From: Nannochloropsis oceanica
Lineage: Eukaryota; Sar; Eustigmatophyceae; Eustigmatales; Monodopsidaceae
Reading direction: 5' to 3'
Length of the DNA: 64,000 bases
NCBI GenBank assembly: GCA_004519485.1
Contig: CP038116.1
Location: forward strand, 496,001-560,000
Under the pieces are notes generated by a model that saw only the letters and a list, made by a program, of their open reading frames with translations, did not search any database and was not told the origin of the DNA. This document shows positions 36,566 to 46,494 of the stretch, one piece after another. Positions within the stretch are counted from its first letter, which is position 1, and the number at the start of each line of letters is the position of its first letter. A program made the position numbers and the translations under genes.

Positions 36566-38818
36566 TCATGCACTCCCCCTCTTTCCTTCTTCCCCTCCTC
36601 TTCCTCTCTCTCCTCCTTCCCCCTTTATGTGTTTCCCCTTCCCCCACACCTTGCTCTTCCGCTTCGCCCTTTCCCGATCCCAGGCCGTGCCTGTCGAGAT
36701 CCTTTCCCGTCTAAATGTAGGCCCCTTCCCTCCCTCCCTCCCTCCCTCCTTCCGTCTCCCCCCCATCCCCTTGCTGTTGGTAGGTTTCAACGCTGTCATC
36801 CACGTCGGTACGTCCCCCCCACTCAATTTTATCACATTGGCTATGGAACGCAGGCCCTTTCCTTCCAGCATATCCCCCTCCGTCCAGAAACTCACCGCCC
36901 TTCCTTTCCTCCCAGCCCTCCCTGTCCTCCCCACCCGATGCACGTACGCTACACACGACGAGGGCAAGTCGTAATTAATCACCATGTTGACAGTCCTTAG
37001 GTCCAGTCCCCGGGAGCATATATCCGTGCAGAGAAGCACCCAAACCTCCCCTGTCCGCACTTTATGCAACAATTCGGCCCGCTGCTCGGGGCTGCGGTCG
37101 GCGTGCATGACCTCGACCTTAAAATTGTCGTAGCACAATTCATGATACAGCTCACGCGCCCGCTCTTTCGTTTGGAGAAACACGAGCACGGGGGGTAGGA
37201 CACCTTCGCGCAAAATCTGTCGCAAGGCCAGGAGTTTCCCTTCCTCTCGCCCTACAAACAGAAGGGATTGTGTCACCGTGTCAGGCACGGCGGCGCCTCC
37301 TTGGTAGTTGTTGGTTAGGGAAGCGGCATAAAGGCCGATGGAGACGGAGAGAGGGTCCCGTAAGATGGACCGTGCTAAATCCTCGATCAAGGGAGGAAGG
37401 GTGGCGGAGAACAAGGCACGCTGCACCTGAGGGTGGGAGCAGGCGGCCAAGATCTCATCGACTTGACCCAAGAAGCTCTTGTCCGGTTGCAAGACATGCC
37501 CTTCCTCGTCCCTCCTTCCCTCCCTCCCCAACTCAAGCAGCTTGTCCGCCTCGTCCAGCACGACGGACAGGACATTGCCGAGGTCTATCCCTCCCTCCCT
37601 CACCACCTGCACCAGCCTCATCGGGGTCGCCACCAACACGTCGTACGCCCCCAATACCCCTCCCTCCCTCCCGCCCTCCCCCCTGGTGGCGGCCAAGGCC
37701 TTGGACAGGAGCCCAATTTTGAACTTTTTGCCTTGCGACAGACGTTCGACTTCCCTGTATATCTGCGCCGCGAGCTCGCGGGTTGGGGCTAAAAACAACG
37801 CCCGAGGTCCCCTCCTGTTTCCGCCTGCTGCGGCTGCTTCTTCCTTTGTGTGCTTCGGTCTTCCTTTGCTTATGGGCGCCCCTAGACGAAGGAGGGTCGG
37901 GATAATGAATGCCGCCGTCTTTCCCGTGCCAGTGGGGGAGGAAGCAAGTAGGTCGCGACCGAGGAGGAGGATGGGCAGGGCTTGCATCTGAATCGGAGTT
38001 GGTTCCTTCCAGTGCGACGCCTCCACGTTCTGAAGGAGGGTTTGGACGAGGGAGGAGGAAGACGAGGAAAGAAAGGAGGAGGAGAGAAGGGAGGGGAGGA
38101 GGGAGAAGGAGGGGAGGCAGTCTGGAATGTTTTCGCCGGTGACTTTGATTCGAAGCCGGCGGCGGAAGGCGCGCATTTCATCATCGTCATTTTGGGTGCG
38201 GCCATGCCGACCGGGGGAGGAAGAGGAATGGGAGGATGAATCATCGCTATCGTTTCCATCACTGTCTTTATCTTGATCGAAAAAGGAGGAGGACGAGGAC
38301 GCCTGTGGAATCTGTGCGCCCTTCTTCGTGCCCTCTTGGTTATCTGCTTTGTTGAAAAGTTGCAAGGTGGAGGCAGCAGCACTTTGGGGAGCAGCACCAT
38401 TCGCGGCAGCAGTAGCTGCGCCCTTCTTCCTCTTCTTCTTATTTGATGAGCTTTTCATGCCATTCTGATGTTGGCCTTCGACCAGCAACTTCTTGCTTAT
38501 CTCCTCCTTTCCATCGTCGTCCTCCTCCGAGTCCTCTTCACGTGCCCGCCGCGGCCTCTTTCGCTTCTGGTGCTCCTGCTCCACACCCTTGACCTTGATC
38601 GCGCCGGCCGACCGAAAGAAATCCAAAGTGGATGTTGTTGATACTGCGGCAGGGGCATACGAAGAAGAAGAAGGAAGCTTCGAGGCGTGCTTGTAAGGAG
38701 AGATGGAGGCCGAGAGGGCGGCCGCAGCATTGCCATTCGCAGCAGCCGCGGCAGAAGTCTTGGCAGTTTTTTTTTTACACCGCGTCCCGGCCCGGAGAGC
38801 TTGGAAGAGCTCGTCCAT
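36566..38818 (-). CDS. DDX52: DEAD-box RNA helicase, ROK1/DDX52 type
   Basis: Single exon, 750 aa. ROK1/DDX52 acts in early 18S rRNA processing and small-subunit assembly in the nucleolus. The N-terminal MDELFQALRAG and the motif LDFFRSAGAIKVKG match this subfamily, as does RIKVTGENIPDCL before the Q motif. Helicase motifs: Q motif WKEPTPIQMQALP (about 270), motif I SPTGTGKTAAF (294-304), Ia APTRELA, Ib ATPMRL, DEAD (422-425), SAT (LFSATLP), IV VLVFLQTKERA, V CTDICSRGLDL and VI YVHRVGRTGRAG. The catalytic core looks complete. Lineage-specific inserts include Lys-rich nucleolar-type sequence, acidic Ser/Asp stretches, and a GREGG repeat between motif Ia and Ib. The C-terminus is Arg/Gly/Lys-rich. 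Confidence 0.93.
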   Translation of the reverse strand: MDELFQALRAGTRCKKKTAKTSAAAAANGNAAAALSASISPYKHASKLPSSSSYAPAAVSTTSTLDFFRSAGAIKVKGVEQEHQKRKRPRRAREEDSEEDDDGKEEISKKLLVEGQHQNGMKSSSNKKKRKKGAATAAANGAAPQSAAASTLQLFNKADNQEGTKKGAQIPQASSSSSFFDQDKDSDGNDSDDSSSHSSSSPGRHGRTQNDDDEMRAFRRRLRIKVTGENIPDCLPSFSLLPSLLSSSFLSSSSSSLVQTLLQNVEASHWKEPTPIQMQALPILLLGRDLLASSPTGTGKTAAFIIPTLLRLGAPISKGRPKHTKEEAAAAGGNRRGPRALFLAPTRELAAQIYREVERLSQGKKFKIGLLSKALAATRGEGGREGGVLGAYDVLVATPMRLVQVVREGGIDLGNVLSVVLDEADKLLELGREGRRDEEGHVLQPDKSFLGQVDEILAACSHPQVQRALFSATLPPLIEDLARSILRDPLSVSIGLYAASLTNNYQGGAAVPDTVTQSLLFVGREEGKLLALRQILREGVLPPVLVFLQTKERARELYHELCYDNFKVEVMHADRSPEQRAELLHKVRTGEVWVLLCTDICSRGLDLRTVNMVINYDLPSSCVAYVHRVGRTGRAGRKGRAVSFWTEGDMLEGKGLRSIANVIKLSGGDVPTWMTALKPTNSKGMGGRRKEGGREGGKGPTFRRERISTGTAWDRERAKRKSKVWGKGKHIKGEGGERGRGGEEGKRGSA

Positions 38819-39573
38819 GGTTCAGGTTAACAAACGGGCCTAATTGGGGAAGGTGGGGTGTGCAGGGAAATCTAACTTAGTACAGGTATCGTGAGTAGGG
38901 CTTGGATACCCCACCAGGTTTCGATTTTGAGATGCTGACTGTTGGCTGAGGGCCGGCTCAACGGCGGCGTGGCGTGCACGGCAAGGTGGTAAAGAAGGCA
39001 CTGGCCCGCATGATTCACGGACTTACGGAGAAGCATGTGAGGAAGGGACATGCATGTGGGTCAGAAATAAGGTGGTTTGAGGAAGTCAGTGCTGCCACCT
39101 CCTCCCCCTTCGCCAATCCTAGAACCCCGTTCGTAGGCCTTCAAGCACACTTCCACACATTACTACAGGCTCCACTCCAATGTTTCATGCCTTGATCTCA
39201 CTTCTAGTACATGTTGTGCCTGACAGAAAAGCGAAACCAGAGAGCCGGGGACCCAGCGCACCATTGGACGGCAACCCCGGCGACAGCAACGGACGACGTG
39301 CCTCACACAGCAATTTTTCAAGCGGCGACCTTCCTAGCCCTGCCTAATCTCTCCTCCTGCAGCATCCTTTTCTCTTTCTAACTCTGGATTCACACATCGG
39401 CGACAGCCGGGTGGCTCCACCGGCACGCTGAACTAGACGGTGACAGGCAGAGGTGAAGGAGCCACCGCAGGCTTCTTCACGGCACACAATTCGACCCACG
39501 ACGTCGAGCCACGCCGTATTTTAAGTCCCCTATCTCTTCCCGTTGTTATTGGTAAGCACCCACGTTCACAGCA
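38819..39573. other. Divergent promoter region, DDX52 / kinase
   Basis: 755 bases between start codons, no coding sequence recognised; an open frame at 38974-39195 has no family features. Confidence 0.5.
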
Positions 39574-40953
39574 ATGATGCTGAATATTTCCATGTCACGG
39601 GCGAGGACAAAGGCTGTCGCACTAGCCCGCGCAGCTGGGAAGGGGCCGTCACGGCGCCTGAGCCCTCGCACCACGCCCCATCCTGCTTCCTCCTCCTCCT
39701 CCTCCTCCTCCTCCTCCTCCTCCTATTCCTCCACCTCCTCCTCCACCTCCTCCTCCAATTCTTTCAGCAGTACAATCAGCTACACTAACGTTAGAAGGTG
39801 CAGTAGAATTAGCGATAGTGGCTGTAGTATGAGCAGCAGCGGCAGCATCGAGGCGACCCGCAGGAGAATACGAAGTTGGAGTATACATTACCTTCAAGCC
39901 TGTTCCTTCCCCTCCTCCTCCCCCTTCTCATTCTCTTCCGCTTTCGCCTCCTCCCCTTTCGCCCCGCGACCATCACCATCATTCCCTCACCCATCGCCTC
40001 GACCACCTTTCCTCTTCCTCTCCGCCTTTGCCTCTTCCTCCTGTAGCTCCTCCTCCTACTCCTCCTACTCCTCGCATAGCAACACCCCCGCTACCCTCCT
40101 CCTCCTCCTCCTCCTCTTCGGTGGTGCGGCCGCCGCAGGCAGCCATACTCTTTTCTACCCCTCCCCCTGCGAGTGCCGGGCCTTGAGGAACATTCACGAT
40201 TTTTACAAGATCGTGGAGAAGCCCATAGGCGCGGGTGGCTTCGGCGTGGTATGCGTAGGCTCCCACCGCGAGACGTCCGAAATTGTGGCCATAAAGCAAC
40301 TTCCCAAGAAATCCATCCGTGAACAAAAAGTCATGACGGAGGTGGACATCCTGCGCTTAGCGGGGGAGCATCGAAACATTATTGGGTTTCGGGATTTATT
40401 CCAAGACGACGAAAATTGGTTTATTGTGATGGAGATGGCGGAAGGGGGGGAGCTCTTTGACCGCCTGGTGGAACGGGGCGCGTACAGCGAGGCGCAAGCC
40501 AGTGAGATCATGCGGGAAATCGTGGATTCGGTGTCGTATCTTCATCAACAGGGCATCGTGCACTGTGACCTTAAACCCGAGAATCTTCTCTTGGCCACGA
40601 AGGCCTCGGACACCTCCAACATGCGCCTGGTGGATTTTGGTAGGGCGGGTGGGCGAAAGGGAGGGAAAGAAGGAGGGGAAAAATAGGGAGCAGGGGGAGA
40701 GAGAGGGGAGGGGGAAGGATCGGCTCTACCAGGGAAGGGCCGGAGGGAGGGAGGGTGTCCACTCGCGCCATTTTTTATTCCTTGCCCTCCCCCCTCCCAG
40801 GCTCGGCTTTTCGCGCGGACGCCGGCGGGTTGGTGTCGAGGAAGGGCACCGGCACGATAGCCTACTCGGCGCCCGAGGTGATCTCGGGCCGGCCCTGTGG
40901 CTTCAAGGCAGATATATGGGCCTTGGGCGTGTTAATGTACATTCTCCTGTCAG

Positions 40954-41037
<84 letters not shown>

Positions 41038-43695
41038 GTGTGCCCTCCCTCCCTGCCTCCATCCCGTGAGCGCATCGTTGAAAATCGATGCACTCATCCT
41101 CCATCCCTCCCTCCCTCCCTCCCTTCCTTCCTTCCTTCCTCCGTCCAGGCTACCACCCTTTCGATCCCCTCAACGACGCCGACGACGACCTGATAGGCGA
41201 GCGCATCGTCAAGGAGAAGGAGAAGTACGTCTCCTTCAGCCACCCGGTGTGGGACCGGATATCTCCCGCGGCCAAGGAATTGGTAAAGAAGCTGCTGGCT
41301 ACGGACGAGGACAGTCGACCCACGGCCCAGGTAGGCGATCCCTTCCCTCCCTCCCTCCCTTCCTCCCTCCCTTTTTCTCGGCCCCGCTTTAGTTAGGCGG
41401 CTGAATTGTCCTATAGCGAAGATTCTCACCAACCTCCCCCCCCTCCCTCCCTCCCTCCCTCAGGAGCTGCTACACGATCCCTGGATCTCGGGAGGCTCGG
41501 AGCTGTCCAAGGAACCGCTGGAGGAGAGTGCAGAAAATCTGCGGTACGTACTCCTCCCTTCCCTCCCTCCCTCCATTTTCCCCCCCTTCCTCCCTCCCTC
41601 CATCCCCCCCTCCCTCCCTCCCTCCTCCTCGCCCATCCTGGAGCTGGCCATGGCCACCAAATTCGAAAGTCATCTCGAATCTTTAATTCCTCCCTCCTTC
41701 CCTCCCTCTCTTCCTCCACCCCTCCCTCAGAAAGTTCCACCGCGGCCGCAGGAGGCTCAAGGCACTCATGCTTGCTATCATGGCTGGGTTTGCCAACGGA
41801 CCGTCCTCCTTCTCCTCCTCCTCCCCCTCCTCCCCCTCCTCCCCCTCCTCCCCCTCCTCTCCCTCCTCCCCCTCCTCCCCCTCCTCCTCCCTCTCCCTTG
41901 CTTCTCCTCCCTCCACGTTCGGGCCGACGGACGAGGGGGGGAGGGAGGGAGGAATCAAGGCGAAGCGCTCTTGGACACAGTCCTGGTCTAGCAAGATGTC
42001 GACCACCCTACGACTGAAGGGCGCAGGGAGGGAAGGAGGGAAGGAGGGAGGGCATGGAAACCGCGGGGAAGACACGCCGGACAAGATGCCGTTGGAGGCA
42101 GGCGTCTTGTCCTCCGCCTCCTCCGCCGCCTCCGCCTCCTCCTCCTCCTCCTCCTCCTCCTCCTCCTCGGTCTCCTCCTCGGTCTCCTCCCGGACTCGGA
42201 CCACCGGCGAGATCGTCCCCGCAGATGCCCTTGGCTCTCGACGTGCCGCCGTGCGGATGCTCGATCCGGTGAACAAGGGCTTCGTTAATGAGGACGATCT
42301 TGCACGCGTCACGGCCTATTTGGGGGAAGAACTTAGTGAAAAGGTGCGTGCACTCCCTCCATTCCCCCCCCCCTTCCTCCCTCCCATCCCTCGACCTGCT
42401 GTGCACGGCCTGACCGAGCACACAAACAACCCTTCTCTCCCCCCCTCCCTCCCTTTCCCCAGGAGCTGACGGAGATGGTCCTGGCCGGCCATGGCGATCC
42501 CCACACCAAAACGCCCACCAACATCACGCACCAGCAGCTCGTCAACCTCCTCCCCCCCCTCTGCCCGTCCAAGGTATACACCCGCCGCGAGCTGCTCTAC
42601 CAAGAAGGGGAGGTGGACGCCACCTTCTACCTCCTCCAGAAGGGTGAGGCCTTGCTTCGATTCGAGTGCCCGACGGACGGCCGTAGCAAGGTTCAAGCCG
42701 GGTTAGAGACCCTTAAGGGCGGCGACAGTTTCGGAGAGATGGAAATGATGATCGAGGCCGACGGCACAGTCAGCCCTAGAACAACCTCCTGTGAGTGCAT
42801 CTCCCCCCGATGTGAAGTCATTGCGGTGGACGACCACCTCTTCTCCCTCCTTACGGACGTGTTCGACTCGACGCATTCTGCCCTTCGGCAACAAGCGACC
42901 CGGAGGTGTAAGCGAGTAGTGGACAAGTGGGTTGATAACCTGACGGTGGCCCAAAAGAAGAAATACCGGCGGTACGAGCCTCTGTGGATGGCGGGGAAGA
43001 AGGAAGCTCACCGTCTCTTCGTGGTTAAGGACGGCTTCTTGGAGGTGGAGATGATGGTGGAGGATTATCACCCTGCTGCTGCTGTTCCAGCTGCTGATGG
43101 TGCCGGCCTTCCTGGTGCTGCCGCTGGTGCAAATACGTCCGTATCCTCCTCCGCCTCCTCCTCCTCCTCTTCCTCATCGTCGTCGACCGCGCGGAAGGAT
43201 AGGGAGAGCAGCAACGCCAAGACGGCCTTTGCCGCCTCTTCCTCCCTCCCTTTCTCGTCCTCCCTCGGTTCTTCAAACGCTCTACGGACGCAGCACAAGG
43301 TTATCAAGCGGTATGGTCCCGGCACTTACGTCTATACTAAAGGTAAGCCCTAGCCCCCTTCTCTCATTCCTCCCTTTTCTTTCTCGCCCACACACCCACT
43401 CCCACACTCATCCCCACATACAGATCTGCAAGGCCGCAGCCAAAGTCGCCCCCTCACCACATCGGGTGTGACGGATTCTTGTAAGCGGGTCAAAACACTC
43501 ACAGACGCCCAAATCATTGAAGTTCCTTCTCGGGCCTTCGAGGACTTTCTCAGCCTGGAACGCCGAGAGCGCTTGGTCAGGTTTTTGATGGAGGCTCAAG
43601 AGACGGGCGGCAAGGTGGTAGTGATGCCTGGGAGGGGGGAGGGAGGGAAGGAGGGGCACGGGGAAGAGGATGGGAAGTTGGTCGCTCCGCACTAA
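39574..43695 (+). CDS. CAMK/CDPK-type Ser/Thr kinase with C-terminal cyclic-nucleotide-binding-like domains
   Basis: Seven exons (39574-40639, 40801-40953, 41149-41330, 41464-41543, 41731-42343, 42463-43342, 43424-43695) join in phase: 1081 aa. The Ser-rich N-terminus has a hydrophobic Leu run (about 176-186). Kinase domain about 210-480: GAGGFGVV, catalytic Lys in VAIKQLPKKS, HCDLKPENLLL, VDFGSAF (split by intron 1), GTIAYSAPEV; all key residues are present. A Ser/Pro region and one degenerate EF-hand-like loop (LDPVNKGFVNEDDL, about 670) follow. Then a CNBD-like domain (about 735-835): LYQEGEVDATFYLLQKGEALL, GDSFGEMEMM and PRTTS, matching the phosphate-binding cassette FGE...PRxxS. A second, degenerate one follows (about 980-1070; RLFVVKDGFLEVEM, KRYGPGTYVYTK, IIEVPSRAFEDFL). 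Regulation by cyclic nucleotide is inferred; Ca2+ control looks doubtful. Confidence 0.88.
40953..41042 (+). repeat. (GT)n(AT)n compound microsatellite
   Basis: GT repeats pass into AT repeats and back to GTATGT units, in the second intron of the kinase gene starting at its 5' splice site. Confidence 0.95.
41808..41895 (+). repeat. TCC/CCC hexanucleotide-like repeat in kinase exon 5
   Basis: Codes Ser-Ser-Pro repeats in the linker between kinase and EF-like region. A similar TCC run lies at about 42110-42190. Confidence 0.85.
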
Positions 43696-44705: not shown

Positions 44706-46494
44706 CTAGAAATATCGGACAAAAAGTAAAATGAATACAATCAGCACCACGAACACCTTGATAATCACCGCCCTGTTCCCACGCACGATCCTCAAGTAAT
44801 TCTCCATCTCTGTGTGTCCCTTCCGCACATCTTCCAAGGCCATTTCCATGTCGTCGTCTATCCTCATCACCACTTCCCCCTGAGCCGCCACCAGCCCCGC
44901 CATCTTACTGAACGTCTGTCCCAGCTCTACAATGGCTTTTTCGATGGCCCTTGCGTCTTTCAAGCGACTTGCTGTGTCTCGCTGAGGTTTTCTTTGAACC
45001 TGCTGCTGCTGCTGCTGCTGCTGGTGGTGGTACTGGTGGTGCGGTGGCATCATCATTCCTCGGCCGCTGGAGGAATAAGAGGGAGGAGGGGCGTATCGCC
45101 GGCGAAGACCCGCGTCAGGACCATCACCTCCTCTCCCTCGACCTCCTGCTCCAGTAAGAGCGGAACCAGGAGGAGGGGGTGGAGGAGGGAAAGGAGGAAT
45201 AGTTAAATCGTCGGAGTGTTTTTGTTGAGAGGGGTTGAATGGTGGTGGTGGAGGAGGGGGTGGTGGAGGATAGGGCAAGGCGGAGGAGGAGGATGGAAGT
45301 GGAGGAGGTGGTGGAGTGAAAGATGACAATGAAGGAGGATAAGGAGGAGGAGGAGAAGGAGAAGGCCCATGTCGAGGTGGAGGAGGAGACCGATGTGGAG
45401 GTGGAGGTGGAGGAAATCTACTTTGCTGCTGCCCCAGCTGCTGCTGCTGCTGCTGCTGCCAAGACCGTTGGTACTGCTCAGGACGTGGATGCTGCTGCTG
45501 CTGATATTGCCCATTTCGATTTCCTTCCTCCACACCAACATCAAACGGAACAGGTGGCGGTGACGACCGTTGCGGGGGAGGAGGAGGGGGAGGATGAACC
45601 CGAGGTGGAGGAGCGGGTCCGACAAACAAGGGAGAATCATAGGCTAGTGCTGGGCCGCGGGCTGAGTGGGTAAAGAGCTTTCTTCGGTCGGCCTGGTCCT
45701 TTAGGACGCCTTGCCGGACCTGGAGGGCGGCTTGGAAAAGCTTGGTGTGTTCGGTGGCGCGTATTTTGAGGCCTTCAACGACACAGGTGCAGTGTCGGTG
45801 GCGTTGTTGGCCTTGCCTGTATTATGTGCATCTGATTGAATAGAAACAAGGCAAGCAATCTCATGTGTGCTCTCCAGCCCGTCCTGGCTCCCTCCCTTCC
45901 TCCTTCCCTCCTTCCCTACCGATAGTGTTTTTCCGCGAACCGCAGTAAGCTCTCAATGTCCCCTTGCAATCTCCCCAGGTCCTTCTTAAAGACCGCCGTC
46001 ACGTCTTCTATCTCCGCGGTGGGGTCATTGTGCATGCCTTTTCGTGTCACCAAACGCTGTAACCGATGGACAAGTCTCCGAATACTCGTGAACTCCTTGG
46101 CAACTGTAGCGGCCGCAGCCCCGAAGTCAGAAGTGCCATGCGGAGGGAAGGAGGAAGTGGAGGAGGAGGGGTCAGTGGAGGAGGAGCCGTTGTGGTGGAA
46201 GTCGTCGGGCTCGTCCTGAAGGGAGGGAGGGAGGGGAGGAATTGGATCGAGACAATGAAGATGGGAGAAGAGGGCACAATTTCCATTCGGGCTGCACGAC
46301 TGGCGGAATTACTGAAACTGCACAGGGATAAAGTGAAAATGGGGGAAGTACAGCGGCGAAGCCCCGCACAACCATCACACACAAGCTACTCATGCCCCAC
46401 CTTGTCCCCCTTATATACCCAAACGTACCTCGACGGGCAAATCTGTCATGCCAAATAGTTTGAGGAGGCCCTGAAACTCGCGAGTGCGGTCCAT
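44706..46494 (-). CDS. Qa-SNARE, Sed5/syntaxin-5-like
   Basis: Exons (minus strand) 46494-46429, 46215-45920 and 45816-44706 join in phase to give 490 aa. Sed5/syntaxin 5 acts in ER-Golgi and intra-Golgi fusion. The start MDRTREFQGLLKLFG matches the family N-terminal peptide that binds Sly1. The N-terminal helices are visible (VAKEFTSIRRLVHRLQRLVTR, DPTAEIEDVTAVFKKDLGRL, RATEHTKLFQAALQVRQGVLK). The SNARE motif is about 410-468 (IEKAIVELGQTFSKMAGLVAAQ, then GEVVMRIDDDMEMALEDV) with the central Gln in AAQGEVV. A C-terminal membrane anchor follows (about 470-488, VIIKVFVVLIVFILLFVRYF). Unusual is a linker of about 220 residues rich in Pro and Gln between the helices and the SNARE motif; most Qa-SNAREs are about 300 aa. 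Membrin- or other Qa-types are less likely given the N-peptide. Confidence 0.9.

Follow-up and report, generated by a model that had tools for sequence, protein, structure and literature searches.

PKG is an AGC kinase with cyclic-nucleotide-binding domains (CNBDs) N-terminal to its catalytic domain, and CDPKs carry a junction and Ca2+-binding EF-hands, usually four, after theirs. We analyze a window of 64,000 nucleotides from Nannochloropsis oceanica (assembly GCA_004519485.1, contig CP038116.1, positions 496,001 to 560,000, forward strand), in which a gene at 39574..43695 on the plus strand (ATG at 39574, stop codon ending at 43695) encodes a predicted kinase-CNBD protein of 1,081 amino acids. 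It resembles CDPKs, including the genome's own candidates (C20, C24, C3 and C13), in its CAMK-type kinase, its junction and a C-terminal EF-derived segment, but this segment is single and decayed, with two ligand positions lost, it is followed by CNBD modules, and the catalytic loop reads HCD. It resembles PKG, including the one encoded at C10:574153-576711 in this genome, in joining a kinase and CNBDs in one protein and in having a Thr after the Arg of its phosphate-binding cassette, as PKG I beta does; however, its kinase is CAMK-type rather than AGC, its CNBDs are C-terminal, and its cassette spacing is 14 residues as against 9 in the C10 PKG. The domain order supported by the sequence is a CAMK-type kinase, a decayed EF segment, a CNBD (hereafter CNBD-A) and a degenerate CNBD-like module. 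This architecture, in which a CAMK-type kinase carries a CNBD block at its C-terminal end, is real and uncommon, and it is neither that of a CDPK nor that of a PKG.

A comparable combination is indicated for Phytophthora infestans, where Table 2 of the kinome report (PMC3019232) gives cyclic nucleoside monophosphate (cNMP)-binding domains to eight kinases belonging to the AGC or the CAMK group; a CAMK kinase and a cNMP-binding domain would again share one stramenopile protein, with the domain order not given in the accessible part of that report. Because six PKGs are said to carry cNMP domains, at most a few CAMK kinases can be involved, and because the CAMK listing includes PP2C as well, PP2C-kinase-cNMP proteins may be what was counted. 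The CAMK section of the report does not discuss cNMP-domain kinases, and its accessible text does not name cNMP among the unusual kinase domains. As far as this source extends, the architecture class has at least partial precedent in P. infestans. In the accessible parts of the Cryptosporidium (PMC3227725) and Ostreococcus (PMC4143559) kinome papers, cNMP domains sit on AGC kinases, and those of PMC5924475 and PMC4177888 contain no CAMK-CNBD case. Judged by title or the start of the abstract, the matches listed in a literature search included no description of a CAMK architecture in which the kinase precedes the CNBD.

The kinase assignment is carried by a Pkinase match at residues 215-475 (E=1.7e-68) and by the presence of K241, D332, N337, DFG at 354-356 and APE. 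The best PDB matches of kinase and junction together are CaMK1D (206 bits), then CaMK1, CaMK4 and CDPKs, which puts the catalytic domain nearest the CaMK/CDPK kinases and in the CAMK group; CaMK/CDPK regulatory segments also align with the junction after the kinase domain. In a midpoint-rooted tree of 13 rows, comprising the window kinase and 12 other kinase domains of the same genome (CDPK-like, SNF1-like and FHA-type being our own labels), the window kinase falls in a group of eight (support 82/79) with four CDPK-like kinases, one FHA-type kinase and two others, and no sister is resolved. The SNF1-like kinase, which we take to be a CAMK member, is placed outside this group. The first-pass annotation had described the kinase core as intact, and the motifs above agree except for one Arg, as it had overlooked the catalytic loop HCDLKPEN (330-337), in which Cys331 replaces the Arg of HRD; HRD is found in 10 of 10 motifs from nine other kinase loci examined in the genome. 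Loss of this Arg would normally free a kinase from activation-loop phosphorylation. The HCD codons lie at 40561-40569 of the window (residues 330-332), and because a single base separates the TGT codon from CGT, which encodes Arg, the Cys could be a strain polymorphism.

The EF-like loop, 672-DPVNKGFVNEDD-683, has V and K at its second and third ligand positions and, by the EF-hand ligand-position rule, should not hold Ca2+. EF-hand_7 scores 14.5 bits on the segment (E 0.045, cut-off 30), and a phmmer search of PDB with a 421-aa query matches the stretch to centrin (E=2.4e-4) and also to calmodulins. With junction and EF segment joined as the query, the centrin match reaches E=2e-6, the best single stretch giving 2.5e-4. 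The loop had been called degenerate and EF-like at first pass, and the sub-threshold profile score, lost ligands and centrin/calmodulin similarity all agree with that description. Against a profile of the genome's own CDPKs, junction and EF segment together score 9.2 bits, where the top score among 200 shuffles is 6.8; given these values, and a kinase tree that resolves no grouping of the protein with the CDPKs, we do not claim CDPK descent from the EF/junction profile. One of the genome's CDPK-like kinases (C13:319620-321365) has a low-complexity insert between junction and EF-hands that resembles the linker of the window gene.

CNBD-A matches Pfam cNMP_binding at residues 735-823 (E=2.7e-9, 37.3 bits, cut-off 27.5) and scores 32.3 bits against a hidden Markov model (HMM) built from 40 bacterial CNBDs, where no more than 4.9 is reached by any of 500 shuffles; searching PDB with the single sequence gives weaker matches, the best of them to a PKA chain at E 6e-4. 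The 40 were hand-picked from the 80 retained of 196 confirmed relatives of the CNBDs in the genome's PKG and at its C15 locus. The predicted structure, based on an alignment in which every other sequence is a CNBD, takes the CNBD fold, a beta-barrel with flanking helices (pLDDT 85.6). Two of the checks that the first-pass annotation had proposed, a profile search and a structure prediction, thus returned a CNBD. In the pocket, F788, G789 and R804 match all 40 bacterial CNBDs and E790 matches 39. Thr805 directly follows Arg804, as in PKG; for PKG I beta, the accessible text of PMC3080414 reports that Thr193 after the Arg confers cGMP selectivity. In rod CNGA1, according to the accessible part of PMC11027099, E546, S548, R561 and T562 contact cGMP with a Glu-Arg spacing of 15, so the long cassette of CNBD-A, likewise followed by Thr, is compatible with cGMP binding. 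The two differ in that CNGA1 has Ser at the phosphate-contact position and the window protein Glu792, and the latter contains no channel.

A profile search of the full-length protein gives no separate match to the second module. With its Ser-rich insert removed it matches PF00027 at E=3.3e-4 (21.0 bits, below the cut-off of 27.5), and against the bacterial-CNBD HMM it scores 8.9 bits without the insert and 6.2 with it, the best of 500 shuffles being 5.9. Aligned by hhalign to an alignment of five CNBDs, one of them this protein's own, it reaches 2.1% probability (E 0.022). The earlier statement that it lacks the FGE...R cassette is correct, and its identity as a degenerate CNBD-like module is probable.

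The kinase, its position ahead of CNBD-A, the decayed EF loop and, in the predicted model, the CNBD fold form the secure part of the explanation that we favor. In this proposed mechanism, the junction after the catalytic domain would hold a CAMK-type Ser/Thr kinase in check by autoinhibition; CNBD-A and the degenerate module would replace the calmodulin-like lobes, the EF-hand having no Ca2+ ligands; and movement of CNBD-A, most likely upon binding of a cyclic nucleotide, would release the kinase. cGMP would be the favored ligand, given Thr805 after Arg804 and the long, CNG-channel-like cassette. Taken whole, this account of a single-gene, junction-inhibited and CNBD-A-released kinase has, in our judgment, very nearly an even chance of being right; the ligand step is its least certain part, with the balance about level. 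The first-pass annotation had likewise placed the CNBDs where a CDPK has its calmodulin-like lobes, which agrees with what we find, but its proposal that a cyclic nucleotide serves as ligand goes beyond what the sequence supports. More tentatively, and at somewhat less than an even chance, a Ca2+-type kinase may have been rewired, its EF switch decaying while a CNG-channel-like CNBD came to gate the kinase through the old calmodulin-style junction. A bolder form of this idea would make Glu792 a built-in phosphate mimic that is displaced by a ligand or partner.

Several observations weigh against a conventional cyclic-nucleotide switch on a CAMK kinase. Besides the composition of the model alignment, the Glu-to-Arg spacing of CNBD-A is 14, where 39 of the 40 bacterial CNBDs have 9 and one has 11. 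E792 occupies a position that reads A in 29, S in 6, G in 3, V in 1 and T in 1 of them, and aligns with the phosphate-contacting Ser of CNGA1; T806 occupies one that reads A in 38, V in 1 and T in 1. Junction and EF segment match the profile of the genome's own CDPKs weakly, and HCD for HRD could mean altered kinase activity. The usual cassette has FGE, a small residue at Glu+2 and Arg at Glu+9, and the first-pass reading of an FGE...PR cassette holds for E790 and R804 but had passed over the unusual spacing and Glu792. An acidic side chain where CNGA1 has S548 would be expected to repel phosphate, except if it faces away or is paired with R804. E790, R804 and Thr805 favor a cyclic-nucleotide ligand, and E792 and the spacing oppose it or at least alter the pocket; because of this altered pocket, CNBD-A is at most a putative cyclic-nucleotide binder.

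CNBD-A could instead keep its fold but have lost the ability to bind a cyclic nucleotide, with E792 paired to R804 in place of the phosphate as an intrinsic ligand and the CNBD block serving as a fixed regulatory or protein-docking platform. This is a possible reading, though we hold it clearly short of an even chance. E792 at the phosphate-contact position, T806, the changed spacing and a second module without cassette all fit it, as does the solved cGMP-dependent kinase 5dyk, whose domain 3 is weak (19.0 bits) beside others at 70-80. On the other side, CNG channels bind cGMP with long cassettes, and the retention of E790, R804 and Thr805, next to a second module that lacks the cassette, points to selection still acting. 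We regard it as improbable that the kinase is still controlled mainly by Ca2+/calmodulin, with free calmodulin binding the junction and the C-terminal modules merely localizing the protein: the junction does align with CaMK/CDPK regulatory segments, and four other kinases in the genome adjoin EF-hand matches (C20, C24 and C3 above the Pfam cut-off, C13 below), but the EF loop has lost its ligands, and the genome's CDPK profile scores junction and EF segment little above shuffled sequence. If a cyclic nucleotide does control the kinase, the protein would document, within a single polypeptide, the passage of a CAMK kinase from Ca2+ to cyclic-nucleotide control, and this non-motile alga would have a further cyclic-nucleotide kinase beside PKG. 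If CNBD-A does not bind, the protein is a clear case of a CNBD retained as a ligand-free regulatory part.

All of these readings take the seven exons as one gene, with six introns that are all GT-AG (Table 1). The alternative, two adjoining genes misjoined at exon 5, where a kinase gene would stop and an independent CNBD gene would start, draws on the low complexity of the Ser/Pro linker in exon 5 and on parts of that exon being open in the other two frames as well. However, exon 5 is one 613-base open frame from junction through EF segment, and homology runs across the introns: PDB alignments of the kinase continue beyond intron 4, which falls at residue 493/494, and end within the junction, at residue 499 for CaMK1D and at 508-512 for several CDPKs; the centrin similarity of the EF segment spans residues 666-717 and crosses intron 5, and the second CNBD-like module, itself only probable, crosses intron 6. 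The kinase has a coding-like distribution of G+C over the three codon positions (0.60/0.39/0.75, near the 0.59/0.49/0.66 of the neighboring helicase), and so do the junction, the EF segment, CNBD-A and both halves of the second module. A split into two genes is unlikely on sequence grounds, and this particular misjoining we consider very improbable; nothing found in the sequence points to exons 6-7 belonging to a separate gene, an outcome the first-pass annotation had raised. A coding-like pattern is absent from the Ser-rich stretches, residues 1-205 among them, so the N-terminus and start codon are uncertain.

Table 1. Features of the kinase-CNBD gene, in window coordinates
Feature	Position	Strand	Basis or remark
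Exon 1: N-terminal Ser-rich part (start uncertain), kinase to DFG	39574..40639	+	Pkinase starts at residue 215
Exon 2: activation loop, APE, subsequent kinase C-lobe	40801..40953	+	Joined frame, Pkinase match
Exon 3: kinase C-lobe	41149..41330	+	Joined frame, Pkinase match
Exon 4: last part of kinase domain, first part of CaMK/CDPK-like junction	41464..41543	+	Pkinase and PDB alignments
Exon 5: remaining junction, Ser/Pro-rich linker, first part of degenerate EF-hand	41731..42343	+	
Junction motif LRKFHRGRRRLKALMLAIM, residues 493-511			In exon 5
EF-like loop, residues 672-683	42263-42298	+	In exon 5
Exon 6: remaining EF segment, CNBD-A, first half of second module, Ser-rich insert	42463..43342	+	
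CNBD-A core, residues 735-823	42571..42837	+	Pfam E=2.7e-9; model pLDDT 85.6
CNBD-A codon E790	42736-42738	+	
CNBD-A codon E792	42742-42744	+	
CNBD-A codon R804	42778-42780	+	
Second CNBD-like module, residues 851-1060	42919..43629	+	Borderline; without FGE...R cassette; split by Ser-rich insert (about 903-971) and by intron 6
Exon 7: latter half of second module, C-terminus, stop	43424..43695	+	

The gene is flanked by a DEAD-box helicase (36566-38821, minus strand) and a SNARE protein (44706-45821, minus strand). Across the genome (29,264,788 bases, 32 contigs), we obtained 22 CNBD matches and 105 kinase matches in searches that score the best candidates and ignore introns, so that kinases or CNBDs may be missed. 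Five CNBD matches have a kinase match no more than 2 kb away, one in the window gene and four in the C10 PKG, and the other 17 are at least 19 kb away. In the C10 PKG the CNBDs precede the kinase and have 9-residue cassettes; three CNBDs are followed there by a kinase whose catalytic loop reads YRD, not HRD. A search of the genome with the part from EF segment to second module gave 13 matches, three of them this gene, and because the best other match has E 0.0033, the search revealed no clear paralogue of this block. The genome contains three Guanylate_cyc matches; PDEase_I gave no match, but all controls were equally silent and the result carries no information. A scan of IMG/VR for CNBD-A relatives yielded 15 pattern stretches and 0 relatives.

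Two further loci in this genome combine CNBDs with other domains. On C15, at about 447258-449045, a single frame of 596 aa holds two CNBD stretches and, after them, an RGS domain (1.6e-6). On C11, at about 712425-715095, a CNBD (Pfam 2.6e-14) and EF-hand_7 (3.7e-13) share one frame, and a mitochondrial carrier (6.3e-72) follows in another, overlapping frame; the locus may encode a mitochondrial carrier that is regulated by Ca2+ and has gained a CNBD, the join being putative.
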